A stretch of DNA of 64,000 nt from positions 1 to 64,000 of the forward strand of contig JACJGO010000029.1 of assembly GCA_014163555.1 (NCBI GenBank), given 5' to 3'. Below are positions 4,801-64,000 of the stretch, piece by piece. A program made the translations under genes and the position numbers. Source of the DNA: Flavisolibacter longurius (GTDB lineage: Bacteria > Bacteroidota > Bacteroidia > Chitinophagales > Chitinophagaceae). Below the pieces are notes generated by a model, which searched no databases, was not told the origin of the DNA, and saw nothing but the letters and a program-made list of their open reading frames with translations. Numbering within the stretch: position 1 is the stretch's first letter; each line of letters starts with the position of its first letter.

Positions 4801-7410
4801 TAAAAGTTTTTGCAGATATTTCTTATTAAGGGTCAGTATTAGCTTTTCATTCGTATCTGACAGCGTGAAGGTTAGTAAGGGAAAAGTTGACACCAGATCA
4901 CCCGTAACTTCTGTTGTTTTCAGATCGCCAAGGTTGCGTATCGGGTGACTATAAGGAAACGTCAGCCCGCCAAGTTCGACGGCCAGTCTGAAGGCATATT
5001 GGTTCTCGATTTTTGCTCTTAAGGAAAGCGGGTTTACATTCAACCTGTAAAGCTTATAGCGATTCTCCTGGTTTGCATCATTGCTTTGGGAATTCACTTC
5101 TTCTGCAAAACGATGCGTCGTACGATAATGAAAGTTTTGTGGCATTTCGCTTGAACCGTGTTCACTAAGCGGCAGCAATGCGTCATTTGTGTTCAGCTTT
5201 AGTTCTTCTCCATTCTTCAACGATATGCGGAACTTGTTGAAATTACTATAGTCAAACAGCAGCGGTTCAATACTTCCCTGCCCTGCATTTACAAATCCAT
5301 TTTTGTCCAATGTCACCTCCATAGCCCGCGAAAAACCATTGACAGAAATATTGAAACGAAAATTATAATGTTTATCAAGTGCTATGAATGCTGTTTTTGA
5401 TGATTCTTTGTGCAATAGCACGTTAAAGCCGCGCTGGAACATATTAGGAATATTATTCTGAACGGGAATGATCAGAAGGTCTGCGTCTACTGTATCCTTA
5501 ACTCCCTGCGAGTTCCCTTGGTTAAACATTGGAGATAGGCCTTCAGCGTAGATCTCAATCATCTCATCATCATCTACTTTTCCGTCAGTCCATACGTTGA
5601 TGAGGATGATATTGGCTGCCGGTTGAACCTTCACGATCCTGAAAACAAAATCGTCCTTACGCAAGCTATCGCCTGGGCCATATAACAATTTGCGCAACTC
5701 CTGCAATTCTGTGACAACATCCTTTGCCTGAGGATCTGTGGTGGCGAGCGGAACAGATGCTTTTTTGGATATTTTAAACACCTGTTTTTGTTGCTCCGGC
5801 AAAACAACTTTTTTTACCTGTACGCTTACTACAAGGGCCGGAGTAAAGTTCTTTAACTCAATACTGTTTTCCATTGGAATGAACTTCACCTCATTGGTAC
5901 CATCTTTTTTGAACAGATCTTCTTCACGCAACAACATTCGCTGAGGGTTAAGTTTAATGAATGCGGCGTCTTCGTCATCGCCTTGGTAAGTTACCCGGGG
6001 ATAATCCACTAATGTATCCAGCAATGCTTCCGGAAGCTTGATAACGGTAGCAAAACTGTCCTGGCCAAGTTGTATGGGATAAGGAGTGAAGTTGTGATCT
6101 AGCAATGCGTTTACTGGATAATAATTTGCTTTCTCCTGGTTGAGTGTTGTCGTATCGACAACATAGGTTGCCGGAAACGATAGGCTCCTTTTGAACTTTG
6201 AATGATCGTTGTGATTTGTATTATGGATGTATGCTGTAATGGAATCAAAATAATTTTTGCGGTCTCCCGCAGAAAGCATAGCCAGCAAGCTCATAGTGCC
6301 GGCTGTAATTGTGAAAGTTGTTGCAAATGAAGGAAGCTGCACTTGGTGCATTGGAATGGCCGCTACCTGGCCGCACAAAGAATAAGCATTTGTTTCCATC
6401 CATCCCGACTGTGTCCCATCTGGATTTAGCTGCATACCATCGGGAGTATCAATATCTTTTATCGCCATTAGGGAGATACCAGCGTCACGATTAATACGGA
6501 CTCTTTCACCGGCACCATAAAAGAATTGCAAACGCTCAACAAGCTTTGCCGGTTCTTTCTCAGAAGCGATATTTTGGCACAGAACCCTGCGATAGTTTTT
6601 ATCAGCGCCCAGTTCTGCCTTTGCCTCTGCAGGTCTGGTTTTTAAATAATCAAATGCTTCTTTACTGAACTTCAGCGGATCCGGTGCAAACGAAGAGGTA
6701 ATGTCGATACCTTCTATACTAAGAAAATGGCAATAACTTGCGATGTAAAAATTCTGTATACCCAAGGGTAGTTTTTTACTGGCGGGGATTGTGGCCTGCT
6801 GATTTTCGATTTTGCTTACAAAACTTTCCCGGAATTGAGCTGGGTTTTCTCCCGTCCAGTCACAGTTCCATATCTTTTTCTCCAATGCATCGGTGATTTC
6901 GCCTGGTTCTTTGCGGAACACATCGGTCAGAAGCGCGGTAAACCATTTGTTCAATGTCACCAGTTGCCCATAAAGAACATAATCGAAATAGTTGATGCCC
7001 GTTTTTCTTTTTGAAAGGTTCACGACAATAGAACTGTTGCTCTGCCTGATCCAATCGACCTTTTCTTCCTCTGACAAAAACTCAAACCCGAGCTTATTAT
7101 CGACTGTCATTCCATTAAAAGAAAAAATGAGTGGCACATTCAATGGCGGAGGCACAGGTACCAAACGGGATGGATCTTCACCTGCTATTTGCATCGCCCT
7201 TGCATTTGCACCAAGGTATTCCCATGTATATGAAGCTGCCTGTGTAGCAGGGTTCAGGTAGTCTGTTATCAATGGACATTCGTCAAAATCATCCGTGTTG
7301 ATAATAAATGTATTCACGATCACATAAAACGTATCGTTATTGATGATCGTTTGGTCATACAGCGCACGGGGACAAAAGTTATCAATAATGTATAATATCT
7401 TATTGCGCAT
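1834..7410 (-). CDS. Giant protein of unknown function (1858 aa)
   Basis: A 1858-aa protein without signal peptide, membrane segment or motif that I recognise. It is a mosaic of beta-rich and charged helical stretches with few cysteines, as in large structural or surface-assembly proteins. The last 10 residues are strongly basic. The gene begins 14 bp after the stop of the 1969-aa giant gene, and a lipoprotein gene precedes that one, so the three form a tight operon. Enzymatic motifs (Walker A, HExxH, GxGxxG) are not apparent. A long uninterrupted frame of 5.6 kb on one strand leaves little doubt that it is a real gene. Candidates such as an injection-system effector, tail-fibre-like protein or lipid-transfer scaffold are guesses I cannot support from sequence alone. 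Confidence 0.85.
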   Translation of the reverse strand: MRNKILYIIDNFCPRALYDQTIINNDTFYVIVNTFIINTDDFDECPLITDYLNPATQAASYTWEYLGANARAMQIAGEDPSRLVPVPPPLNVPLIFSFNGMTVDNKLGFEFLSEEEKVDWIRQSNSSIVVNLSKRKTGINYFDYVLYGQLVTLNKWFTALLTDVFRKEPGEITDALEKKIWNCDWTGENPAQFRESFVSKIENQQATIPASKKLPLGIQNFYIASYCHFLSIEGIDITSSFAPDPLKFSKEAFDYLKTRPAEAKAELGADKNYRRVLCQNIASEKEPAKLVERLQFFYGAGERVRINRDAGISLMAIKDIDTPDGMQLNPDGTQSGWMETNAYSLCGQVAAIPMHQVQLPSFATTFTITAGTMSLLAMLSAGDRKNYFDSITAYIHNTNHNDHSKFKRSLSFPATYVVDTTTLNQEKANYYPVNALLDHNFTPYPIQLGQDSFATVIKLPEALLDTLVDYPRVTYQGDDEDAAFIKLNPQRMLLREEDLFKKDGTNEVKFIPMENSIELKNFTPALVVSVQVKKVVLPEQQKQVFKISKKASVPLATTDPQAKDVVTELQELRKLLYGPGDSLRKDDFVFRIVKVQPAANIILINVWTDGKVDDDEMIEIYAEGLSPMFNQGNSQGVKDTVDADLLIIPVQNNIPNMFQRGFNVLLHKESSKTAFIALDKHYNFRFNISVNGFSRAMEVTLDKNGFVNAGQGSIEPLLFDYSNFNKFRISLKNGEELKLNTNDALLPLSEHGSSEMPQNFHYRTTHRFAEEVNSQSNDANQENRYKLYRLNVNPLSLRAKIENQYAFRLAVELGGLTFPYSHPIRNLGDLKTTEVTGDLVSTFPLLTFTLSDTNEKLILTLNKKYLQKLLRNQQDQGAAHITVYRALYEAFFDALHNRCQLTLELWNFNNSLHGLNPEEAAHPEISREWPSLMKHLEKRKTEVLLLDFTDLLKSFNKTTFKEFKEAINAYIDGSATHTKTVTLTSSLATEIGNTNIVRLGLLITRTDDKTVRQQFKGGVPNVEDLRPFPLKGEDELGSTFAFTRTEVARAALQSYIDSASGNNTLFTSFSYVSSEWYDINKPTDTSADQRTNVKELLGETTSFIWRPKGLAPNMTDMLLYYVTYSFRPLQVHPKLLDLKTTISFAEYLLRLLAWLAYPEKQKEDPKTFLVDIVETNNAETLFKTKLQARDRILPSIAEKLVTLLTYVDNRPQTFTNPHYELVSVISERIKNSLSRAFRSMLMEDPVKYITAKGFGVGLFSGVSTKHLESHSVLPPDGEMRDLYMLQLIKDIRRPLAPGAPSQAPKANDVTRVNFKAFLENTSESGPVSDRFFIETLEDALYDNEFQISEKGNAQSEPFDASQVRTAEDMLENNNRLNEQKASDKPGKFAVAHYCPDWISQQNEKFYLLPSRTPPSTPVPYTPAQIKLTKNSEADWDKLVLKLSDDISLAFSPTAPPVIFESRGVAHNEKLHEIKSKFWDRWDIFINTYDFIIEPDEEGEIKNDLFELYVSDKIDTSSLDQANLADTLDIPNTDIFKQFEFYVRKKEGAVKPLELHALMPLDGTTGVIQNLLDELLKPGSEDPTGTISDIRLRHDNSGKFILTINSSFALRERVLSAEVFRVKAAPATQPVKHVIRIKILADPWSHFRCRLRVRRNMRDIANDGRFDINPAFVINSAFSTWIDYGIQSLSYNYLSDVQGSAEWPIALKYLEPSTLSYAEYRAKITSNKPIPFGDLLLQHLAKNKKMFAVDELQRKERLFNSYVEQRVRSAAPQLFHRDKDLSSIITYKKLATDSLAKSGVAKITADTLVHFDVAPETIRSHEPILHFTWYSTEDSTKEVFSISLKLKLKKSKNITMRMK

Positions 7411-53533: not shown

Positions 53534-53881
53534 ATGGAAAAGAGAAATGAAGTACAAAGCTTTCTTAACGATTTCAAGACAAAGCTGAAGATCTGGGGAG
53601 TTATCTTTCGGGACAATCGAAGCAAAAACTCCCAGTCTGTCCTGGATCTTGAAATCACAACAGAGCTGCGAACGCAGATATTAAGCGAGCTCCAGCTGGA
53701 AGACTTCTGTGAAGGCCCCATCGACGACACGCTTTATGGTGTCGCCTCCATGTGGGTGTTCGGCAAGCTCGTAAAAAAGAAAGAGATCTACATTAAGATC
53801 TCGATGGGGCGACCAGGGTCGCAGACAATCTGTATTTCATTTCATGTGGCAGAACGGAAAATGAAGTATTTCTTTAAATGA
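53534..53881 (+). CDS. MqsR/RelE-like toxin
   Basis: A 115-aa small basic protein. The second half has LEDFCEGPIDDTLYGVASMWVFGK, a KKEIYIKISMG strand and TICISFHVAERKM, the pattern annotated as MqsR-family toxins in Bacteroidota (a RelE-like mRNase fold). It starts directly behind the operator palindromes and ends 7 bp before its antitoxin gene. Toxin-first order is seen in mqsRA. The catalytic residues of this branch are not certain from sequence. Confidence 0.75.
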   Translation: MEKRNEVQSFLNDFKTKLKIWGVIFRDNRSKNSQSVLDLEITTELRTQILSELQLEDFCEGPIDDTLYGVASMWVFGKLVKKKEIYIKISMGRPGSQTICISFHVAERKMKYFFK

Positions 53882-53888
53882 TTAATGT

Positions 53889-54896
53889 ATGAAAAGTCCT
53901 CTGACAGGTAAAGACATGCCAATTGTGAAAGAGGAAAGATCGCTTGCGTATAGGAAGGAAGAATTCAAGGTGGTGTACCACGTGTACAGGTGCGGGGACA
54001 CGGACGAAGAATTTACGGATGATGCACTGGACAACCTCAATCTGGCGCAGGTGTATAATCAGTACAGGGCTAAGTACGGCATCCCGTCGGCAGATGAAAT
54101 AAAAAGAATCAGGGAAAGCTACGGCCTAAGTGCTGCCAAGATGAGTGAAGTGCTGGGATTTGGTGCGAATGTCTATAGGCAATATGAATCAGGGGAGATC
54201 CCATCTGTAACGAACGGCAGATTAATTAGACTTGCCGCTGATCCGAAAGAATTTAAAAAGCTGCTGGAAATAGGTAAGAATGCGTTGGAGGAGCATGAAT
54301 ACCGGAGAGTATCAAAAAAAATAGAAGAAGCGGTAAGCGGGTGGGATGTGATTGATGAAATCATCGAAGACCGCATGTTCCATTCAAAGGTACCTAATGA
54401 GTTTAATGGCTACCAAGCGCCGGACATCAATAAGATTGGTGCAATGGTAAAGTTCTTTGCACAAACAGTGCACCCTTTCACAACCGCTCTGAACAAACTG
54501 ATGTTTTACGCTGACTTTGGTCATTACAAACGGTATGGCGTCAGCATCAGCGGTTTAAAATACCATGCAATTCAACGCGGCCCGGTCCCAGTGAACTATG
54601 GCAGCATCTATAATCAGCTCTACAATCTGCAGTATATAACTGTAGAAGAGATAGAGTTTGAAGACTTTGTTGGTGAAAAGTTTCATCATGCCGGTGAACC
54701 TATCAGCTTAGAAGCAATAGCATCTCCGTTCAATGATGCAGAAAAGGAGACCCTGAAGATGGTGGTAGATACACTCGGTAAAATGAAAACAAAGCAACTG
54801 GTCAATCTTAGTCATGAAGAAGATGGTTGGAAAGACAACAATGAAAGTTTTGAACAAATCAGTTATCAATATGCTTTTGATTTAAAGGCGATTTGA
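53889..54896 (+). CDS. Xre-Panacea (DUF4065) antitoxin with MqsA-like N-terminus
   Basis: A 335-aa protein with three parts. Residues 1-50 are a beta-rich module like the MqsA toxin-binding domain, but without the paired zinc cysteines (only Cys36 remains). Residues about 60-115 form an Xre helix-turn-helix (IKRIRESYGLSAAKMSEVLG followed by YRQYESGEIP). Residues about 190-300 form a Panacea/DUF4065 domain (NKLMFYADFGHYKRYGVSISGLKYHAIQRGPVP). Panacea domains act as broadly compatible antitoxins in PanAT systems. It is the second gene of the operon, 7 bp after the toxin. Confidence 0.82.
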   Translation: MKSPLTGKDMPIVKEERSLAYRKEEFKVVYHVYRCGDTDEEFTDDALDNLNLAQVYNQYRAKYGIPSADEIKRIRESYGLSAAKMSEVLGFGANVYRQYESGEIPSVTNGRLIRLAADPKEFKKLLEIGKNALEEHEYRRVSKKIEEAVSGWDVIDEIIEDRMFHSKVPNEFNGYQAPDINKIGAMVKFFAQTVHPFTTALNKLMFYADFGHYKRYGVSISGLKYHAIQRGPVPVNYGSIYNQLYNLQYITVEEIEFEDFVGEKFHHAGEPISLEAIASPFNDAEKETLKMVVDTLGKMKTKQLVNLSHEEDGWKDNNESFEQISYQYAFDLKAI

Positions 54897-55185: not shown

Positions 55186-55359
55186 ATGGCAAGCAACGGA
55201 AAATCTGGAGACAACAAACGACATGGCGCGGTAAAAAACCGCAGCCAAGTATTCAATCCTTTCAGCCAAAGATTCGTAAAAAGAGACACGACAACGGGTC
55301 AGTTCATGGATGTAAAAAAAGACGGAAAAAAATTTAAAGGCATACGTAAAGAAAGCTAA
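55186..55359 (+). CDS. 57-aa basic protein, first gene of the E2-E1-JAB operon
   Basis: ATG at 55186 to TAA at 55357-55359. The peptide is basic and Gly/Lys/Asn-rich with a conserved-looking SGDNKRHGAVKNRSQ block at the N-terminus, VKRDTTTGQFMDVKKDG in the middle, and an FKGIRKES tail. Similar small proteins occur widely in Bacteroidota as conserved hypotheticals, from memory only. It is too short for a beta-grasp (about 75 residues) and lacks a terminal Gly-Gly, so it is not an obvious ubiquitin-like modifier. It precedes the LRAT-like gene by 12 bp. It may be a substrate, a carrier or unrelated. Confidence 0.6.
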   Translation: MASNGKSGDNKRHGAVKNRSQVFNPFSQRFVKRDTTTGQFMDVKKDGKKFKGIRKES

Positions 55360-55371
55360 AACCAATATCAT

Positions 55372-55803
55372 ATGAGGTATTCAACCCAGTACTGGCTGCA
55401 ACTGGCAGACCGTATTGTAGAGCCTATCTTTCAATCAGGGCTTAGCAAACATCATTCTATTTATTTAGGAACAGACTCCAGCGGTAGTAAATGGATCTCA
55501 GAGAACCTTTATCGCAAAGATGTTCGTCTTGTACCTGCGAAAGCGTTTTTCCAACACCGGAAGCAATTCGGGTTACAACCTTTTATCGGCAGCTATCCCG
55601 ACCGTATTCCTGCAGTGAAACGGGCGTTGTATTATTTAGGCAAGCCTTATGACCTTTTCAGTTACAACTACGAGCACTATGCAGAATATGTACAGCATGA
55701 AAGGGTAATTAGCAGGCAAATAAACACTGTCAATGAAATGATCCGGGCGATTGCCATCCTTACCCTAATAGCAGGTCTTCTTAACATATTTACTAAACGA
55801 TAA
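55372..55803 (+). CDS. LRAT-like membrane protein with catalytic Cys replaced by Tyr
   Basis: A 143-aa protein with the order of the permuted NlpC/P60 (LRAT-like) fold: SKHHSIYLG (His27/28) near the N-terminus, a WISENLYRKDVRLVPAKAF strand pair, then LGKPYDLFSYNYEHYAEYV (about 89-107). In active LRAT-type enzymes the last motif is N-C-E-H; here N99-Y100-E101-H102 shows Tyr (codon TAC) for the nucleophile, one base from TGC. A C-terminal transmembrane helix (about 123-140) anchors it, as in cellular LRAT proteins. It is therefore likely a pseudoenzyme or binding subunit. It is 12 bp after the 57-aa gene and 10 bp before the MBL gene. Confidence 0.7.
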   Translation: MRYSTQYWLQLADRIVEPIFQSGLSKHHSIYLGTDSSGSKWISENLYRKDVRLVPAKAFFQHRKQFGLQPFIGSYPDRIPAVKRALYYLGKPYDLFSYNYEHYAEYVQHERVISRQINTVNEMIRAIAILTLIAGLLNIFTKR

Positions 55804-55813
55804 ATCCATACCA

Positions 55814-56920
55814 ATGGAAACAAAAATTACATTTTACCCTATCGGAAATGCTGATACAACATTGATAGCGCTAGCGAACAATCAGAAAGTGCTCTTTGAT
55901 TATGCCAACATGCGTTGTGCCGATGATCCAGCTGATAAACGAATTGATTTACCGAAAGAGCTGAATAAAGTTGTTACCGGCGATAGCTATGATGTAGTTT
56001 GCTTTACTCATATGGACAATGACCATATTTGCGGCTTTTCCGAATATTTTCATTTGGAACATGCAAAGGCATATCAGGGTGAGGGCAGAAAAAAAATCAA
56101 AGAGATGTGGGTGCCCGCTGCTATCCTGTTGGAAACCTCACTTGATGGTGAAGCCCTGACGCTGCGAACGGAAGCAAGGTTCCGGCTTCGCAACAAAACG
56201 GGTATTCGCATCTTTTCCAGGCCCAAAAAACTGAAACAGTGGTGTGATCAGCAGCTGGATATTTGTTTTGATGACATCAAGCACCTGATTGTGGATGCGG
56301 GAACATTGGTACCGGACTTCACAAAACAGGGTAATGGTGTTGAGTTTTTTGTCCATTCACCATTTGCCAGTGAGACGCAGCAGATCGACCGAAACAATGA
56401 GGCCATCGTTGTACAGGCAACTTTCGGTGATGCATGCGAGACAAAACTTTTACTTGGCTCTGATCTCAACTCTGATGCTTGGTCGGATATTGTCAAAATC
56501 ACCAGGCACTTTGGCAGGGACGAACGACTTCGATGGAATATTTTTCATCTCTCTCATCACTGTAGCTATACCGCTTTGAACTGGGAAAAGGGAGAAACAG
56601 AAACCAAGCCGACGCCTGAGGTCAAATGGCTCTTTGAAAATCAAGGAGAGAACCGCTGTTGGATCATTTCTCCAAGTTGGTGCATTCCAACCGCAGATAC
56701 AACACAACCGCCGCATAAGCAAGCCGCTGCCTATTACCGGAAAGTGGCAAACAGCAAGGCGGGCGGATTCAAGGTAACAATGGATCATCCAACCAGTGGG
56801 AATCCAAAGCCAATGACCTTTGTGATTGACTCGCTGAGTTGCGCAAGGTTGCAGATACAAGCGTCGGCGGCTTTCGCAAGTTTTGAACAAAAACCCTCAA
56901 GAGCTGGCCATGGACAATGA
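55814..56920 (+). CDS. ComEC-like metallo-beta-lactamase-fold hydrolase (plus operon)
   Basis: A 368-aa MBL-fold protein. The metal-binding motif is THMDNDHICGF with His66, Asp68, Asp70 and His71, a variant where the second His is Asp, as in ComEC-like and related MBLs. Later motifs FHLSHHCSYTAL and LLGSDLNSDAW supply the usual His/Asp ligands. There is no signal peptide or TM, so it is a soluble hydrolase. It overlaps the E2-E1-JAB ATG by about 11 bp, indicating translational coupling. MBL-fold partners are reported beside bacterial E1/JAB systems, and a role in hydrolysing a modifier conjugate or a nucleotide is plausible. Confidence 0.85.
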   Translation: METKITFYPIGNADTTLIALANNQKVLFDYANMRCADDPADKRIDLPKELNKVVTGDSYDVVCFTHMDNDHICGFSEYFHLEHAKAYQGEGRKKIKEMWVPAAILLETSLDGEALTLRTEARFRLRNKTGIRIFSRPKKLKQWCDQQLDICFDDIKHLIVDAGTLVPDFTKQGNGVEFFVHSPFASETQQIDRNNEAIVVQATFGDACETKLLLGSDLNSDAWSDIVKITRHFGRDERLRWNIFHLSHHCSYTALNWEKGETETKPTPEVKWLFENQGENRCWIISPSWCIPTADTTQPPHKQAAAYYRKVANSKAGGFKVTMDHPTSGNPKPMTFVIDSLSCARLQIQASAAFASFEQKPSRAGHGQ

Positions 56921-59129
56921 CAATGCACAGTTCCCTGTTGCAACCGATCCAATTGATGCTGCCAAATTGCAGGTTCAAAAAGCCATTGATTTTGCACACA
57001 GCCTTCCGCTTACCGAATGCGCAACGCTCATTAAATGCCTAACCATCACAGAGGGTGATGATATCCTATTTTATAGCGGAGACGAGATCGTTGTTTTTGA
57101 GGTGGCTGTTGATGTGGGCCCCAGGCCCGTTCATGACATCCGGTACACAGAGCGAATGGCTGTCTTATTCACTTCAAAAGACCAGACGACGCCCTGGGTT
57201 TTTGCATTGCGCAAAAACTTCCCCCCTGTTCTTCACCGGATCAGTTTATACTTTGAGCAGCCAACCTGTCTTTGTATTTACGAGACACCTTACGAAGAGT
57301 TGAAACTGGAATGGCGCCCTCAACGTTTTTTGCAGGACATCCGGAACTGGCTTGCCCTGACTGCCGAAGGAAAACTTCACCAGGATGATCAGCCTCTGGA
57401 GCCGCTGCTGATTTTTAACCAAGGACGAATCATTTTGCCACCTGACCTGAAGTTGGAAGATGATTTATTTGTAATGCTCCGGAGCGCTAGGAATGGCAAG
57501 TGGAATTTCCTGGCGGGTCGCCAGCCGATGGAAAATACCGAACCATTTCATTCGCTGATCTTAATTGGTGCGCTGCAGGAGCATGGCATTTTGGACAGTG
57601 CACCGATGAATTTACAAGCGCTGCACCAGTTCGCACTTCGAGCTGGCATCGACCTGTTGGCGCTGTTACAGGAAATGATCATCAAAAAACTGGGGCAACC
57701 TGATTTTCTAAAAAAGAAGCTGCTGGTCCTGCTGCAGCTTCCCAAAAAAGGTGAAGGCCGCGGGCAGGAACAAGACTTTTACGTCTTTCTGACGAGTAAT
57801 ACACTCGAAGAAATCGGTTGTGAAATCAATGCATTGGCCAGGGAAAGTGACCACCTGGGAGCGGTGTTCCCCGCAATACCTCCATCAGCCCAGAGCGGTA
57901 TCAAAGTGCCGGTACAGGTCCTGATACCCTATTTTAGGTTGGACAAGAATCTTGCTCATTTTTTTTCAGGTTACCCTTCCACAGATCCAACGGCCATCAC
58001 CATTGCGCAGATTGGCGTAGGTGCTCTCGGTTCCCAATTATTTATGAACCTAGCGAAAACGAGATTTGGTCGATGGAAACTGATTGACGATGACATTTTT
58101 CTTCCCCACAATGGTGTACGGCATCACCTTCATCAACAATATGCCGGCCTTCCCAAATGCCAGGCGATGGCACATGAAGCAAATGAACTGCTTGAGGAGA
58201 AAGACATGGCCCTGGGTATCTGGGAAGATTATTTATTCCCAGCTGACAGAGACAACCTGACAAAGCACCTTCAAGAATCGAACATCATTCTTGACCTATC
58301 AACCTCTATTCCGGTTGCAAGAGACCTGGCGTTTCGCAGGGACCTAAAAGGCAAAAGGGTGTCGATGTTCTTGAATCCAATGGGCAGTGACCTTGTGATT
58401 TTGGCAGAAGATGCGGAGCGCCGCTTTCCGCTTGATGTTTTGGAGTTTCAATATTATCGCGCCCTCATGACGCAGAAGAAGCTGGTGGGGCATCTGGACA
58501 CTGCCGGTACGGTTCGTTACTCTAATTCATGCCGCGATACCACTAGTCGTATTCCACAGGATTATGTAGCCCTACACGCAGCGATCAGTTCCTCGACGCT
58601 TAAAAAACTAGCGAAGCAAGGCTCACCCATGATCGGCATCTGGCGAATAAAAGAAGACATGGCAGTAGAGGCTGTCCCCATCAACGTGGAAGATTATGTA
58701 GTCGCTGAACGAGGTGCATGGCTGGTATACATTGATTGCTTTTTGATAGATAAGATCAGTGAGGCAAGACTGGCTAAGCTACCCAATGAAACCGGTGGCA
58801 TTTTGATAGGAGGTTATGATTTTGAAAGAAAGCGCATTTACCTGGTGGATAGCGTTCTTTCGCCAAAAGATAGTGAAGAGACACCCACCGGGTATGTGCG
58901 TGGTAGAGAGGGACTGAAAGAGGTCACTGCACGTATTCATCAACAAACGGCCAATCACCTCGTTTACGCCGGCGAGTGGCACAGCCACCCTGAAGGATGC
59001 AGTCTAAAAAGGAGTGATGATGACGAGATCCTGTTTGCAGAAATTAAAACCAATATGACAGCCATCGGTTACCCGCCATTGATGCTGATTGCCGGTGACA
59101 ATAAAAAGGTGGAAGTGTATATTGAATGA
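56910..59129 (+). CDS. Triple-fusion E2-like / E1-like / JAB (JAMM) protein
   Basis: A 739-aa protein from the ATG at 56910, preferred over an in-frame TTG at 56883. Domain 1 (about 60-170) is E2-like: PTCLCIYE with Cys120/Cys122 as candidate catalytic thiols, a W-P-Q-R-F helix and TAEGKLHQDDQPLEP. Domain 2 (about 360-600) is ThiF/E1-like: GVGALGS P-loop (369-375), VRHH (Arg404) and an NSCRDTTSRIPQ motif with Cys541. Domain 3 (about 620-739) is a JAB/JAMM metalloprotease: ETGGILIGG (Glu627), GEWHSHP (His691, His693) and SDDDE (Asp705), with zinc ligands intact. It should activate, transfer and remove a small modifier. The middle (180-350) is unassigned. Confidence 0.9.
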   Translation: MDNDNAQFPVATDPIDAAKLQVQKAIDFAHSLPLTECATLIKCLTITEGDDILFYSGDEIVVFEVAVDVGPRPVHDIRYTERMAVLFTSKDQTTPWVFALRKNFPPVLHRISLYFEQPTCLCIYETPYEELKLEWRPQRFLQDIRNWLALTAEGKLHQDDQPLEPLLIFNQGRIILPPDLKLEDDLFVMLRSARNGKWNFLAGRQPMENTEPFHSLILIGALQEHGILDSAPMNLQALHQFALRAGIDLLALLQEMIIKKLGQPDFLKKKLLVLLQLPKKGEGRGQEQDFYVFLTSNTLEEIGCEINALARESDHLGAVFPAIPPSAQSGIKVPVQVLIPYFRLDKNLAHFFSGYPSTDPTAITIAQIGVGALGSQLFMNLAKTRFGRWKLIDDDIFLPHNGVRHHLHQQYAGLPKCQAMAHEANELLEEKDMALGIWEDYLFPADRDNLTKHLQESNIILDLSTSIPVARDLAFRRDLKGKRVSMFLNPMGSDLVILAEDAERRFPLDVLEFQYYRALMTQKKLVGHLDTAGTVRYSNSCRDTTSRIPQDYVALHAAISSSTLKKLAKQGSPMIGIWRIKEDMAVEAVPINVEDYVVAERGAWLVYIDCFLIDKISEARLAKLPNETGGILIGGYDFERKRIYLVDSVLSPKDSEETPTGYVRGREGLKEVTARIHQQTANHLVYAGEWHSHPEGCSLKRSDDDEILFAEIKTNMTAIGYPPLMLIAGDNKKVEVYIE

Positions 59130-59138
59130 GATAACGCC

Positions 59139-60116
59139 TTATAAAGGTGTGGCCTTACCATAACCGGGTCGCTTGGATGTGCCCCTTCGGTGCAACAAGT
59201 TATTCTTTGCAGTTGAATAAACGTTACAGTCGTAGGATTTCAATAACTCCACTACCTTTTCATTGGGATAATGATCTGACCCATCACCAGAAACATAAGC
59301 GACTTTGGGTTTGAGGATTTTGATAACATCCTCGTCAATATTATAAATGCTTCCATGGTGTGGGACCTGCATCCAATCCAGTTCAATTAGGTCATATTTT
59401 TCACTTGCTTCTCGGATAAATTTTGACTTGGTATCAGATGTAAAAAGGTACTTCCGATTAGCAGGGGTAAATAGGGTAATGGCAGAACTATTATTCTCCT
59501 TCGAACCGTCGTTGTACTTCTTTAAAACATCTCCGAGCTTACTTTCTAAAATAATTTTTTCTGCAAAACCCATATCTTTTTCACGTCCTAAAAGAACTGA
59601 TACATCCCGATATTTACTCAATAATTGCTGATATGTTGGTTTCGTTGGGCCAATAATCTTTAGGGGGGCTTTCTCATATTCCGTCCCTTCGAAAGGTTCG
59701 CGGTCCCTTCGGATCGTTCTTTTTGAGTCAATCAATTCGAGTAGATTTAATGAGTCTTTAAGGGTTTCATTTAATGTTTGCAGTCCGCCTTTATAGAGCC
59801 GACTGCCATCAATTGCTTCTGTTAGTTTTTCAATTTTATTCACATGTCTCGTTGGATCATGGATCCAGAACTCGTCGATAGGTACCTTGTCGACTACTTC
59901 AAAAAAACCGCCGATATGATCTTCATCGGGATGAGTACAAATTGCCAGATCGATTGAACCTTTTGTAAATCTATCTATGTGCTGTACAACTCTGCCCCCA
60001 TGCTCCTTTCTCCCCGCATCGATCAGAATCACTACTTCATTATTGACTTCATCAAAGTACCTGATAATAATGGCGTCTGCTGCTTTTACAGAAAGCATTT
60101 CTATTTCAAAGGGCAT
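59139..60116 (-). CDS. ComEC-like metallo-beta-lactamase-fold hydrolase (minus operon, distal)
   Basis: A 325-aa MBL-fold protein with THPDEDHIGGF (His62, Asp64, Asp66, His67), again the Asp variant. The C-terminal VPHHGSIYNID and AYVSGDGSDHYPNEKVV motifs are typical of ComEC-like proteins. No membrane helices, so it is not a DNA-uptake channel itself. It is the last gene of the minus operon (36 bp after the upstream MBL gene) and its stop lies 9 bp from the stop of the E2-E1-JAB gene, convergent. ComEC-type soluble hydrolases occur in defence systems as nucleases or nucleotide hydrolases; its substrate is unknown. Confidence 0.85.
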   Translation of the reverse strand: MPFEIEMLSVKAADAIIIRYFDEVNNEVVILIDAGRKEHGGRVVQHIDRFTKGSIDLAICTHPDEDHIGGFFEVVDKVPIDEFWIHDPTRHVNKIEKLTEAIDGSRLYKGGLQTLNETLKDSLNLLELIDSKRTIRRDREPFEGTEYEKAPLKIIGPTKPTYQQLLSKYRDVSVLLGREKDMGFAEKIILESKLGDVLKKYNDGSKENNSSAITLFTPANRKYLFTSDTKSKFIREASEKYDLIELDWMQVPHHGSIYNIDEDVIKILKPKVAYVSGDGSDHYPNEKVVELLKSYDCNVYSTAKNNLLHRRGTSKRPGYGKATPL

Positions 60117-60152: not shown

Positions 60153-61631
60153 TCAAACTATCAAAGTGTATTGTAGGTATAAGGGATCATTAAGTTCAAA
60201 GTTCTTATCAAATTCTTCTTTTTCTTTTTTTGACATTCGGGATCTTGCTTCTTCTATCCTTTCCTTAAGCGGAACTTCTTTGTTGAAGTCATAAAAGAGG
60301 TCTTCCTCGTTCATTATCATTAAACGGCCTTTGGTTTTTGCCAGTAGCTCTTTAACAATGGCTCGGTTGGGCATTGTACTAGTCCATCCTTCGTTAATGA
60401 CGTTGTAATCGAGTGTAGCCATGGCTACAAGGTCTTTGCTTTTCATCATATTTAAACCTAAACGCTGGGCTGTACCATTATGGCTGAGATGATGGGCAAC
60501 TTTGTAAAAAACTGTGCGGTTCAGGAGGTCTTCCGTTAGAGGGGTTTCTCCATCGCGTCCCTTCTCCGTCCATTCGATGTTATGCCAGCTCGCCCAACTG
60601 CCATATTCCGCATCACCAGGAAAGAGCAGTACTTTGCCGCTATCCTCCAGTTCAATAGCCAATGTCAGGCTGAGGTTATTGGTTAATCCATTCATGCGTA
60701 AAGCAAAAGAGCCTGCACTGAACATCCAGTCGAAATCAATTTTTCGCCAATCGTGTTTATCGTATTCAACACAATTAGGGTTAGTATCGGTACATTCTAC
60801 AAAATGTTCATCGAATGGCAAAAGGCTTACCTTATTCAAACTGGTCTCGTAATTCATTACAGCCGCTCCAAATGCGCCACTTTCCCTGAGAATATCATTG
60901 TGCAGGTAACTTTCTCCTTCTGCGCCTTTTTCTTTTTTTATATCCTCGTAAAGTTTTGGCGGACCCAAAACATAAAACTTGATACCTTCTGCCCCCTCCA
61001 TATCGCTGACCGTGTCGCCAGGCATGAAATACCTAACTTCCTTTTTGTTTATCTTCCTTTTCACCACCTCCATTCCATCCAATCCACCTTTGTATACTTT
61101 CCCCGCTGCTGACATATGTAGGTCCGCAAAACCCGATAAAACATTGGAAAAAGTTTTTCTTGCATTCATTGTCATAGTAGCATGCTTGTTACCTTCCAGC
61201 TGTTTTTTATACTCCGGGCTATTAATTGCTTTCTCCAGTTGACGAGCAGCTAAACCTAAGGCCTTTTTTTTCTCGCCATAGTCTTTCTTCCAATCTTTTA
61301 CCTTATTAGTTTTATCGTTCTCTGTCCAACCGAACCAAATTTCACCTACTTTAAAATCATTGGCAGTAAAATGGTCCTCGCAACAATCAAAAGCATGCAC
61401 ATGATCTTTGTGCTCATGCGTAATGACTAAGACATCGATAAACTCACCCAAGTATTTCTTAAGGTTTGTGATATAGGGTTCTATTTCTGACTTTTTGCCT
61501 GTCCATGAACCTGCATCGATTAACATTCTAAACGTTGCTTCTTTTTCTTGTTCCGAGAAAAACTTCAGCGCAAAACAATCGCCTGTGCCCATGCGGTACA
61601 TACGAATTTCTACTTTATTGATCTTTGCCAT
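60153..61631 (-). CDS. Metallo-beta-lactamase-fold hydrolase (minus operon, proximal)
   Basis: Using the ATG at 61631 (an upstream ATG at 61661 would overlap the peptidase gene more deeply) the protein is 492 aa. The metal motif is canonical, VITHEHKDHVHAF (His72, His74, Asp76, His77), with further ligands in VLLFPGDAEYGSW and VFYKVAHHLSHNGT. An inserted helical region of about 150 residues (about 95-245) makes it much longer than its neighbours. The C-terminus is charged. It shares the fold but not the Asp variant of the two other MBL genes, so it may act on a different substrate. It overlaps the peptidase stop by 17 bp. Confidence 0.85.
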   Translation of the reverse strand: MAKINKVEIRMYRMGTGDCFALKFFSEQEKEATFRMLIDAGSWTGKKSEIEPYITNLKKYLGEFIDVLVITHEHKDHVHAFDCCEDHFTANDFKVGEIWFGWTENDKTNKVKDWKKDYGEKKKALGLAARQLEKAINSPEYKKQLEGNKHATMTMNARKTFSNVLSGFADLHMSAAGKVYKGGLDGMEVVKRKINKKEVRYFMPGDTVSDMEGAEGIKFYVLGPPKLYEDIKKEKGAEGESYLHNDILRESGAFGAAVMNYETSLNKVSLLPFDEHFVECTDTNPNCVEYDKHDWRKIDFDWMFSAGSFALRMNGLTNNLSLTLAIELEDSGKVLLFPGDAEYGSWASWHNIEWTEKGRDGETPLTEDLLNRTVFYKVAHHLSHNGTAQRLGLNMMKSKDLVAMATLDYNVINEGWTSTMPNRAIVKELLAKTKGRLMIMNEEDLFYDFNKEVPLKERIEEARSRMSKKEKEEFDKNFELNDPLYLQYTLIV

Positions 61632-63654
61632 GTTGATGATGATGTGTGTGAAGAAATGCAAACGGTTCGTTGAAATAACTTCTCAGTCCGGTTCCGAAAT
61701 ATACGCTCTGTTCACTGAGGCTTAGGATGCCTTCTTCTGTTTGGTAGCGATGCTGTTTTAGGATGCGGTCGTGGCATACTTCCCGGATGTTGTTGGTGAG
61801 TTTTTCGACATCAAGTAAGGGTTTGCTGATGACATACCGAACAGTCACTGTATCCAAGTCGAAAATCATGGTGGAGCCACCCCAGAATTCGAACCCGCCT
61901 TCTGGGGGCTTTCGTTTGTCGTCAGGCCTATAGGTTTTGACAAACTTGCCATTCTTTACGACCACGCCGATCCTTTGCACAAGGGTAAAGACGATGTAAT
62001 TGATGCGATTACCATCCGGCCCTGAACGCGAGACTACCCGCAGGTTTTGGACACGAAAGGAAGGACCTTTTTCATTGTTCTCGTAAGGCTTTGTTGTGCG
62101 AACACCATACCTTGCCCATTGTTTGTTAAAAATGATCCCTGTCAGCTTTTCAAACTCAATGGAGTTTTCAAATTTCAGAAACAATCGTTCATGGAGCCCC
62201 TTGATTATTTTCCCATCGCCTCCAAGGTATTTGCGGGAAACATTATAAATCGCTTCACGATCATTCAGGTAGATGACTTCATCCCTGTATTCTTTCAGGA
62301 ATTCAATGATGATGTTGAACAATTCCCTTGTAGAAACATTCAATTGCGGTTCGCAAGCGTAGCGCAAGCTTTCTTCGCTCAGGGTCTTTATTCCTTCAGG
62401 GTAGATTCCCCTTCTGCGGAAGGCCTCTATAAATGCCAACCGATAGTCGCGGTCATCTTCCATTACCAAGTCATAGTCGGCGGTGATGATAGCTCTCAGG
62501 TATTCTCCGAAGGTAATGTCAACAGGGGGGCAATAGTCTAATGCACGAATGCACATGTTCAGGACATGGCTGGCAGCTTTGGATGCCTCACTAGCCAACC
62601 GATTTACAAGGTCAGGGTGCAACTGCCCCTGTGGCAGAATTCCAGTACCGTTAGTTGCGATCCGCAATAGGTCGGCAATCCTACTTTTATAAATATTGAT
62701 AAAGGCCTCAAAAACGGCAGCTACAAGAATGCTACCTCTTTCATGAGGCTCCATTTCTTTTCGATATAATTCAGGATCGGGCTTCCGAGATCTCCACTCC
62801 CCTGTATTCCGATCGACTTCACCAATGGCATCCCGGAGGCTATTATATGAACCGATAGCGGCCCCAAATTCTTGGGCCAGCTTTCCTAAAAGATTCTGGC
62901 TTTCGAGATCGCCTTTTGTTTGTGCGATCTGGTGTTTTAGGACTTCCGGGAAGGTGAAATGCTGGAACAGTGCCACGATATCAGCAAAGGCTTCATGAAA
63001 GGCCAGCACATCGGGATTTGATGGTTCGTTATAATGGTAATGCATACCGTCCAGGATGGCATGCGTGACTTCGTGGGCGATGATATCATGACTGAGACAG
63101 GTAAAGACCAGGGAATCAGGCATGTGCACGACGTTGTCGGCAGGAACTGACGAAAAATAGCCGAACAACAAGGCTTTTTTTTGTGGACTGTAGTATGCAT
63201 TGGCTTCCCGCAGTGCATGCGGGTAGATACGCAGCTTGGGCACATATTCCTCAAATTGCTTTGAACTTAATAGGCGGGGTGCCCAAAGTATTTTGCGGCC
63301 TAAAGCTTTTTCAAAGTTTTTTATGGTGGTCATGGCAACTGCATACACCATTTGCTGATGAAATTGTGGGTTGCTCTCACTTGGTTCTAAACCATCTTGC
63401 GCCAGGACAAAGGGGTGATTTAGATTGGCCGCTTTGTACATGCGTTTAATAGTAGGATCAAAATCGATGACCTCTATATATTCTCCACACAAAAAACCAT
63501 CTTCGAGTTCTTCCCATGGAATTTTATAGACGATACGGTTGATTTCGGCCGTATCCATTTTCAGTGATAAGGATGGATCAAATGCATATCCTTTTAACTT
63601 CCTGAATGGCGGTTGTTTGATATTCTCTTTTGATAGATTGGTATTCAGGGGCAT
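61615..63654 (-). CDS. HExxH metallopeptidase (gluzincin-like)
   Basis: Using the ATG at 63654, which shares a base with the upstream stop (TGATG), the protein is 679 aa. The zinc motif is HDIIAHEVTHAILDG (His194, Glu195, His198) and AFHEAFADIVALF gives Glu221 as third ligand, a spacing like thermolysin-type gluzincins. The region before it (about 80-180) has the F/Y-rich strands seen in M4-like enzymes, and about 250 residues after are helical. The C-terminal 150 residues include an FEFWGGSTMIFDLDTVTVRYVI block and a His-rich end. No signal peptide, so it is a cytosolic protease, a possible effector of the island. Confidence 0.8.
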   Translation of the reverse strand: MPLNTNLSKENIKQPPFRKLKGYAFDPSLSLKMDTAEINRIVYKIPWEELEDGFLCGEYIEVIDFDPTIKRMYKAANLNHPFVLAQDGLEPSESNPQFHQQMVYAVAMTTIKNFEKALGRKILWAPRLLSSKQFEEYVPKLRIYPHALREANAYYSPQKKALLFGYFSSVPADNVVHMPDSLVFTCLSHDIIAHEVTHAILDGMHYHYNEPSNPDVLAFHEAFADIVALFQHFTFPEVLKHQIAQTKGDLESQNLLGKLAQEFGAAIGSYNSLRDAIGEVDRNTGEWRSRKPDPELYRKEMEPHERGSILVAAVFEAFINIYKSRIADLLRIATNGTGILPQGQLHPDLVNRLASEASKAASHVLNMCIRALDYCPPVDITFGEYLRAIITADYDLVMEDDRDYRLAFIEAFRRRGIYPEGIKTLSEESLRYACEPQLNVSTRELFNIIIEFLKEYRDEVIYLNDREAIYNVSRKYLGGDGKIIKGLHERLFLKFENSIEFEKLTGIIFNKQWARYGVRTTKPYENNEKGPSFRVQNLRVVSRSGPDGNRINYIVFTLVQRIGVVVKNGKFVKTYRPDDKRKPPEGGFEFWGGSTMIFDLDTVTVRYVISKPLLDVEKLTNNIREVCHDRILKQHRYQTEEGILSLSEQSVYFGTGLRSYFNEPFAFLHTHHHQHGKDQ

Positions 63655-64000
63655 CAATTTTGAATTAATGATGGGCAATAGAGTTTGACCTGCAGTTCCG
63701 TCAAGTTTTCTGCATGACGAACCAACAAAGAAAGCCGCTTTGGAGACAACGCCGTGAGGTTGGTCCCGGTTTTTCTAGCAGTGTTCCATTCTGCGTTTTC
63801 TAGGTCTCTTTTGGCAATGGCGGCATAGCCAACCCGAGCTTCTAGGTGCTGAATGATTTCTCTTTCATGGGCTTTGGGATTATTAATCCAATCGGGGTTA
63901 AAGCGGTGCGCATCGACAACTTCTTGTATCACTTGTCCGTCGCACATGTTGCGAAAGAAGCCTGGAATGGCATTTTTAATTTCCCAACCTAAAGAAAAGT
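63654..64000 (-). CDS. Protein upstream of the peptidase, cut by the window edge
   Basis: The frame is open from the window edge to the TGA at 63654-63656, giving at least 115 residues of C-terminus (an internal ATG at 63947 is only one option). It is helical and basic with RFNPDWINNPKAHEREIIQHLEARVGY, and carries no recognised motif. Translation is coupled to the peptidase gene through TGATG, so they are one operon and functionally linked. What the N-terminus contains cannot be seen. Confidence 0.6.
   Translation of the reverse strand, partial: FSLGWEIKNAIPGFFRNMCDGQVIQEVVDAHRFNPDWINNPKAHEREIIQHLEARVGYAAIAKRDLENAEWNTARKTGTNLTALSPKRLSLLVRHAENLTELQVKLYCPSLIQN

Follow-up and report, generated by a model that had tools for sequence, protein, structure and literature searches.

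An MBL-fold enzyme as the candidate ubiquitin-like modifier of the 6A-MBL system in Flavisolibacter longurius

Toward the end of a 64,000-nucleotide stretch of Flavisolibacter longurius DNA (contig JACJGO010000029.1, positions 1 to 64,000; hereafter the window), a gene for a metallo-beta-lactamase (MBL)-fold enzyme is followed by a gene for a 739-aa protein that joins E2, E1, and JAB domains. The two form a 6A-MBL locus. Our best explanation of this locus, which we hold as a whole with good confidence, is that 6A-MBL works like a type II cyclic oligonucleotide-based anti-phage signaling system (CBASS) with an MBL-fold enzyme replacing the cyclase; the same joint judgment covers the placing of the system's core at 55814-59129. 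On balance, we also think it likely that the MBL-fold enzyme is a ubiquitin-like modifier without a beta-grasp fold, which would make it a second class of large enzymes used in this way, after the CBASS cyclases. It would be activated, conjugated, and released via a C-terminal glycine (within the motif Arg-Ala-Gly, RAG) by one E2-E1-JAB chain, as part of a CBASS-like system whose membrane effectors are exchangeable.

Judged by its sequence, the 739-aa protein is a putative single-chain enzyme for both conjugation and deconjugation, with its catalytic residues intact. The Pfam profiles Prok-E2_A (1.4e-17, residues 60-179), ThiF (2.6e-8, residues 365-463), and Prok-JAB (6.5e-9, residues 612-730) all match it, in agreement with an earlier note on this DNA that had read three fused activities here, with E2 similarity expected before residue 180. 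Across 71 aligned enzymes, the window's own counted, residues C122, C541, E627, H691, H693, and D705 and the E1 glycines Gly369, Gly371, and Gly374 are invariant. Among the key residues proposed earlier, Cys541 and H691/H693/D705 are thus borne out; the JAMM glutamate E627 had been omitted, and alignment points to C122 as the E2 cysteine, C120 not being conserved. The AlphaFold model of the enzyme (mean pLDDT 93.9) has Cap2-CdnD02 as its best PDB fold match (7to3, 1.7e-23), its top matches being Cap2 chains complexed with CdnD02 or with the CdnD02 C-terminal peptide. The best solved match by sequence is also Cap2 (3.2e-29, profile positions 134-488). Cap2 already unites E1 and E2 in one protein, which corrects the earlier statement that these are separate proteins in CBASS.

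The stop codon of the MBL gene and the ATG of the E2-E1-JAB gene overlap by 11 nt, so the coupled pair described in the earlier note is real, but that note had missed that the pair is already known. Iyer et al. described in 2006, as operon type 6a, a triple-module E2-E1-JAB protein that in most operons lies beside a specialized MBL (PMC1779556). NCBIfam names the two families (NF058523 and NF058524) the "anti-phage 6A-MBL system," and both window proteins score far above the curated cut-offs (Table 1). Model NF058524 covers residues 7-340 of the 368-residue MBL, leaving the RAG tail outside. The MBL is ComEC-like, with the ComEC MBL domain 9ic4 as its best solved match both by sequence and by fold, in line with the earlier reading of the overlapping gene; it differs from ComEC in lacking the membrane part and in carrying the RAG tail. 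Its likely metal ligands (D29, H66, D70, H71, D217, H248, and H249) are invariant among 59 aligned MBLs.

Relatives of the locus were drawn from a genome collection (the best 80 of 485), viral contigs (8), plasmids (8 loci from 313 matched records), and genomes of the same phylum (10 loci). Of the resulting 107 stretches (the window plus L054-L159), four were dropped for having no E2-E1-JAB open reading frame (ORF) that passed the profile (L118, L152, L158, and L159) and three as duplicates (L105, L116, and L126), which left 100 distinct loci. Gene ends were set mechanically, as the longest frame with a few frames cut, and MBL-to-enzyme distances range from -397 to +433 nt. In 95 of the 100 loci, the enzyme gene is immediately preceded by an MBL gene in the same orientation, and the other five start at a contig end. 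Among 395 genomes of the phylum, eight have an MBL above the cut-off, and a full-length E2-E1-JAB protein occurs in the same eight and in one more, where it stands at a contig start; no 6A MBL without an enzyme was found in these genomes. Seven of the nine phylum enzymes pass the NF058523 cut-off, and two fall below it (G375 at 318 bits and G285 at 268). Some 6A relatives are plasmid-borne, among them a complete operon with its patatin on Gluconobacter oxydans pGOX1 (L071), and no E2-E1-JAB relatives were found in phage records.

The conserved C-terminal RAG is what makes the MBL, rather than either of two small proteins encoded upstream, probably the modifier, by analogy with CBASS. The aligned MBLs share a low-complexity tail of Ala, Gly, Ser, and Thr that mostly ends in Pro-Arg-Ala-Gly; in the window it reads SRAGHGQ. 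The pattern [RK]xG occurs in the last 14 residues of 88 of the 95 partner MBLs, and RAG itself in 77. The glycine is the final residue in 56 partners and is followed by one to eight variable residues in 32. As a control, we used 21 other MBLs (23 rows from the same loci, less the four real partners in L105, L126, L118, and L152, plus two from the window), none of which has RAG near its end. The tail glycine is in this sense tied to the presence of the enzyme, the comparison MBLs being remote paralogues and not enzyme-less 6A MBLs. Among all ORFs of at least 100 aa in these stretches (n = 2350, partners and duplicate stretches included), RAG is found in the last 14 residues of 106 and [RK]xG in 375. 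We also considered whether RAG might be read at the nucleotide level, as a Shine-Dalgarno sequence that serves translation of the coupled enzyme gene. This was rejected: the motif is encoded by 42 different 9-mers across 77 genes, with all six Arg and all four Gly codons in use, and so it is the protein sequence, not a ribosome-binding site, that is selected. In the AlphaFold model of the MBL (mean pLDDT 93), the last 18 residues (351-368) fall to 48-54, and the ten-residue blocks 181-190 and 341-350 to 75 and 79, so the tail is predicted to be disordered or flexible.

CBASS cyclases lack a ubiquitin fold; they are conjugated by way of a C-terminal Gly or Ala whose conservation is restricted to operons that also encode Cap2 and Cap3 (PMC10097602), and Cap3 releases the cyclase (PMC10097602, PMC11153139). 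Because the 739-aa enzyme is nearest to Cap2, and because the CBASS cyclase is conjugated in this way, we infer by analogy that the MBL would be conjugated through its tail glycine. The window locus and type II CBASS have in common the E2-E1 architecture (7to3), a JAMM isopeptidase, a C-terminal glycine on a partner enzyme that is not a beta-grasp protein, and patatin or transmembrane (TM) neighbors. They differ in that the MBL takes the cyclase's place and that JAB is fused to E2-E1 in one 739-aa chain instead of being divided between Cap2 and Cap3. No cyclase was found in Pfam, NCBIfam, and PADLOC scans of ten window proteins (for the 739-aa enzyme, among the best 25 of 52 PADLOC matches). 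Bil and Bub operons, the latter represented by structures in the PDB, likewise run a bacterial cycle of E1, E2, and JAB. Their difference from the window is the modifier: no beta-grasp family was found in Pfam and NCBIfam scans of the ten window proteins, although a very diverged one could escape these. In Bil, BilC trims a C-terminal precursor of BilA (PMC11354881), and the extensions after the glycine in 32 MBLs resemble, by analogy, such precursors in need of trimming by JAB.

The RAG tail might instead have only a docking or regulatory role, with the enzyme binding or clipping it while the conjugated protein is a different one, perhaps a ubiquitin-like protein of the host. Genes that co-occur could, after all, simply encode a complex. 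We nevertheless regard this as unlikely. A disordered tail ending in glycine, variable extensions beyond it, and a JAB domain within the enzyme are together the requirements of a conjugated substrate; after the MBL, the commonest neighbor family is present in only 34 of the 100 loci (BLAST groups, frames of at least 50 aa); and Pfam, run on ten window proteins, shows no small beta-grasp family.

The genes behind the enzyme offer a further parallel with CBASS. Among the 98 loci with a neighbor directly downstream, it is a same-strand patatin in 28 and a same-strand protein of one of three TM families in 33 (25, 4, and 4), and 75 of 100 loci, the window included, have a gene of either kind somewhere in the fetched stretch. 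At least two TM segments are predicted in all 46 members of the membrane families, versus 57 of 625 frames of 150-270 aa, by a simple hydropathy count and with a control that contains such members too. By analogy, the slot after the enzyme looks like a CBASS-like effector repertoire. One of the membrane families is PADLOC PDC-M48A. In several 6A loci (L086:5191-6183, L091:9036-10028, and others), the gene after the membrane gene encodes a second MBL, and the L086 copy is PDC-M48B, an arrangement that suggests PDC-M48 and 6A-MBL to be combined modules.

Several observations weigh against this picture. Seven of the 95 partner MBLs are without [RK]xG: those of L060, L061, and L063 end in glycine without the arginine, that of L055 has GAG and three further residues, that of L157 ends in YGSK, and those of L088 and L129 have no such end at all. 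Conversely, [RK]xG occurs near the end of three of the 21 other MBLs, including the product of the window's own 59139-60116 gene. In 37 of the 98 loci, the window among them, the gene directly downstream of the enzyme is a different one or lies on the opposite strand. The anti-phage label of 6A-MBL rests on the NCBIfam naming, our literature search finding no experimental paper on such activity, and no MBL conjugate has been seen. That search, which took in no preprints and few subscription papers and did not find the study behind the NCBIfam name, also turned up no paper that we recognized as treating MBL conjugation; earlier publication of the idea is possible.

The mechanism that would account best for the locus starts from an MBL made with a flexible tail ending in RAG-HGQ. 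The gene pairing, the intact catalytic residues, the conserved tail glycine, the disorder of the tail in the model, and the effector-type neighbors are what the analysis shows; we infer the conjugation of the MBL, the target, what the MBL cleaves, and the identity and activation of the effector. The JAB domain would trim the tail to the RAG glycine, G365, which the E1 domain would adenylate and pass via C541 to C122 of the E2 domain. The E2 domain would then form an isopeptide bond between the MBL and a target, with a lysine as the probable acceptor, and the JAB domain would reverse the conjugation. Attachment may set the place or the activity of the MBL, which would be a ComEC-like phosphodiesterase or nuclease. 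Infection would shift the balance of conjugation, the MBL would act, and a membrane-attacking effector would kill or stop the infected cell. In many relatives that effector would be the downstream patatin or TM protein; in the window the nearby patatin may serve, possibly with the upstream LRAT-like protein as an accessory.

Two small genes precede the MBL gene in the window, for a 57-aa protein and a 143-aa LRAT-like protein, and the earlier note had taken all four as one operon. The four ORFs do lie where that note put them, all on the + strand, with gaps of 12 nt (57-aa to 143-aa) and 10 nt (143-aa to MBL) ahead of the 11-nt overlap. That they form one dedicated system whose modifier is the 57-aa or the LRAT-like protein draws support from this tight spacing on one strand, and from the LRAT family, since three relatives of the LRAT-like gene immediately precede cyclase-E2 operons. 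Yet neither small gene is found in the other 99 distinct 6A loci (phmmer, E 0.01), 86 of which have 700 nt or more of sequence ahead of the MBL gene, room enough for both. Neither protein ends in glycine (KES and TKR), and members of the 57-aa family reside on plasmids and in phages, next to other genes in the seven cases viewed. We therefore consider this alternative extremely improbable, and the surveyed loci already largely refute it; the four-gene operon does not recur, an outcome that the earlier note had itself named as refuting its reading, and the MBL with its conserved RAG is the more likely modifier.

The 57-aa protein belongs to the PADLOC family PDC-S38 and is, by the distribution of its relatives, a wide-ranging passenger, cargo and not core. 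As a modifier it was rejected on its absence from the 99 loci, its other neighbors, and its KES end. At E 0.01 it has relatives in 57 plasmid and 16 phage records, and no 6A operon was found in the seven neighborhoods viewed (2.5 kb on each side, less at a record end). PDC-S38 is conserved at 58-65% over 43 residues between plasmids of Hymenobacter and Klebsiella and prophages of Gram-positive bacteria, amid unrelated neighbors (NZ_CP043648, NZ_CP110173, MK075006, and MK448814, our L162, L163, L160, and L161). One Hymenobacter plasmid holds both a PDC-S38 protein and a 6A operon, about 40 kb apart.

The 143-aa protein matches Peptidase_C92 just under the Pfam cut-off (8.6e-6, 26.3 bits against 27) and LRAT more weakly (0.009), with one TM segment predicted from residue 123. 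In place of the LRAT/C92 catalytic cysteine it has a tyrosine (NYEHY). The NCEHF-type motif with the catalytic Cys, which we take to be that of LRAT/C92 proteins, is present in the homologues, and the cysteine is kept in 15 of the 16 full-length homologues viewed, the exception (L203) being remote and the truncated L205 having been left out. The term "pseudoenzyme" used in the earlier note fits these sequences and stands. Three homologues (L168, L178, and L179; first, second, and fourth closest of 17 compared) lie directly upstream of operons in which PADLOC recognizes a two-TM (2TM) effector, an E2, and a cyclase of the Pycsar or CBASS type, so the LRAT family sometimes accompanies E2-bearing defense operons. 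In these (L168:3824-6346, L178:4845-7306, and L179:2367-5096) the LRAT/C92-like gene before the 2TM effector-cyclase-E2 operon has an intact Cys, and it may be a CBASS-like accessory, possibly undescribed. The third closest relative, L198, has no PADLOC match in six neighbors and L180 none in two; L199 has just weak PDC-S23/PDC-M59B matches in one of two neighbors scanned, and L181-L183 and L200-L206 have other neighbors, as judged by eye. The LRAT profile detected one member in a 6A locus other than the window's, L098, where it lies on the opposite strand, 1.3 kb past the end of the enzyme gene; no relatives were found in plasmids (E 0.01) or in viral contigs. A core role for the LRAT-like gene was rejected on its absence from the 99 loci.

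The lost LRAT active site, and the lack of a same-strand gene directly downstream of the enzyme, could also mean that the system in this genome is a housekeeping modification or a decayed remnant and not defense. We find this very unlikely, since the catalytic residues of the enzyme are all intact, the distribution is patchy (eight of 395 genomes), relatives reside on plasmids, the locus lies beside an integrase and a tRNA-Ser gene, and the NCBIfam name is anti-phage. The flank of the window locus, read on from the enzyme, is a convergent cluster of two MBLs, a 687-aa protein, and a patatin, then the integrase and the tRNA-Ser gene. The patatin frame is complete, with GGGYRA, SGGS, and DGG (L169:3655-4977), and BLAST places its window fragment in one group with the patatins that immediately follow 28 other 6A operons. 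This patatin may therefore act as the effector in the window. The pair of 502-aa MBL and 687-aa protein recurs in four other 6A loci (L063, L065, L068, and L107), loci that were chosen by their 6A-MBL operon; the 687-aa protein has no Pfam, NCBIfam, or PADLOC match. The frame at L169:5373-6647 was read as a tyrosine-type integrase, with tRNA-Ser(gga) at 6847-6935 beside it. The defense genes probably sit on a tRNA-inserted island, although a search of the window for the tRNA-Ser 3' end, with up to three mismatches allowed, gave no copy, and the far island end was not located.

Compared with other 6A-MBL loci, the window thus shares the E2-E1-JAB protein next to a specialized MBL and differs in its extra upstream 57-aa and LRAT-like genes and in having no same-strand effector directly downstream. 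The features are collected in Table 1. Just upstream, at 53534-54896, a small gene weakly similar to MqsR/Csx3 precedes a gene for a Panacea-domain antitoxin of the MqsA family, and the two are likely a toxin-antitoxin pair. Farther up, a 238-aa frame at 52355-53071 matches the N-terminal part only of B12-dependent ribonucleotide reductase and is apparently a broken or split gene.

Table 1. Features of the 6A-MBL locus and its flank, in window coordinates.
Feature	Position	Strand	Basis
57-aa small protein, PADLOC family PDC-S38; accessory cargo, non-core	55186..55359	+	PDC-S38 E 8.5e-30, residues 1-56
143-aa LRAT/C92-like protein, predicted C-terminal transmembrane segment, catalytic Cys replaced (NYEHY)	55372..55803	+	Pfam C92 8.6e-6, LRAT 0.009
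6A-MBL enzyme, 368 aa, ComEC-like MBL-fold hydrolase, candidate modifier	55814..56920	+	NCBIfam NF058524 376.5 bits, cut-off 220
Codons of R363-A364-G365 (conserved C-terminal RAG), followed by HGQ and stop	56900..56908	+	RAG in 77/95 partner MBLs
6A-MBL cap2_3, E2-E1-JAB fusion, 739 aa	56910..59129	+	NCBIfam NF058523 551.3 bits, cut-off 320
E2 domain match, residues 60-179; putative catalytic C122 at 57273-57275	57087..57446	+	Prok-E2_A; C122 invariant in 71
E1 adenylation domain match, residues 365-463; likely E1 Cys C541 at 58530-58532	58002..58298	+	ThiF; C541 invariant in 71
JAB/JAMM domain match, residues 612-730: E627, H691, H693, D705	58743..59099	+	Prok-JAB; ligands invariant in 71
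Second MBL-fold gene, 325 aa, PDC-M48B/LmuA-like; convergent neighbor	59139..60116	-	PADLOC PDC-M48B 4.3e-38
502-aa MBL, convergent cluster	60153-61661		
687-aa protein, convergent cluster	61615-63678		
Patatin-like phospholipase, C-terminal part; 440 aa in full, runs to 64976 of the contig; possible effector	63654..64000	-	

A 2023 commentary asks which other proteins unlike ubiquitin are conjugated and how they might be found (PMC10449767). The tail of the 6A MBL is a concrete and widespread candidate for a conjugated protein without the hallmarks of ubiquitin, and the question of the modifier, raised by the earlier note, now has a specific and testable answer. If that answer is true, it would suggest that E1-E2-JAB machinery has been recruited more than once to tag defense enzymes.

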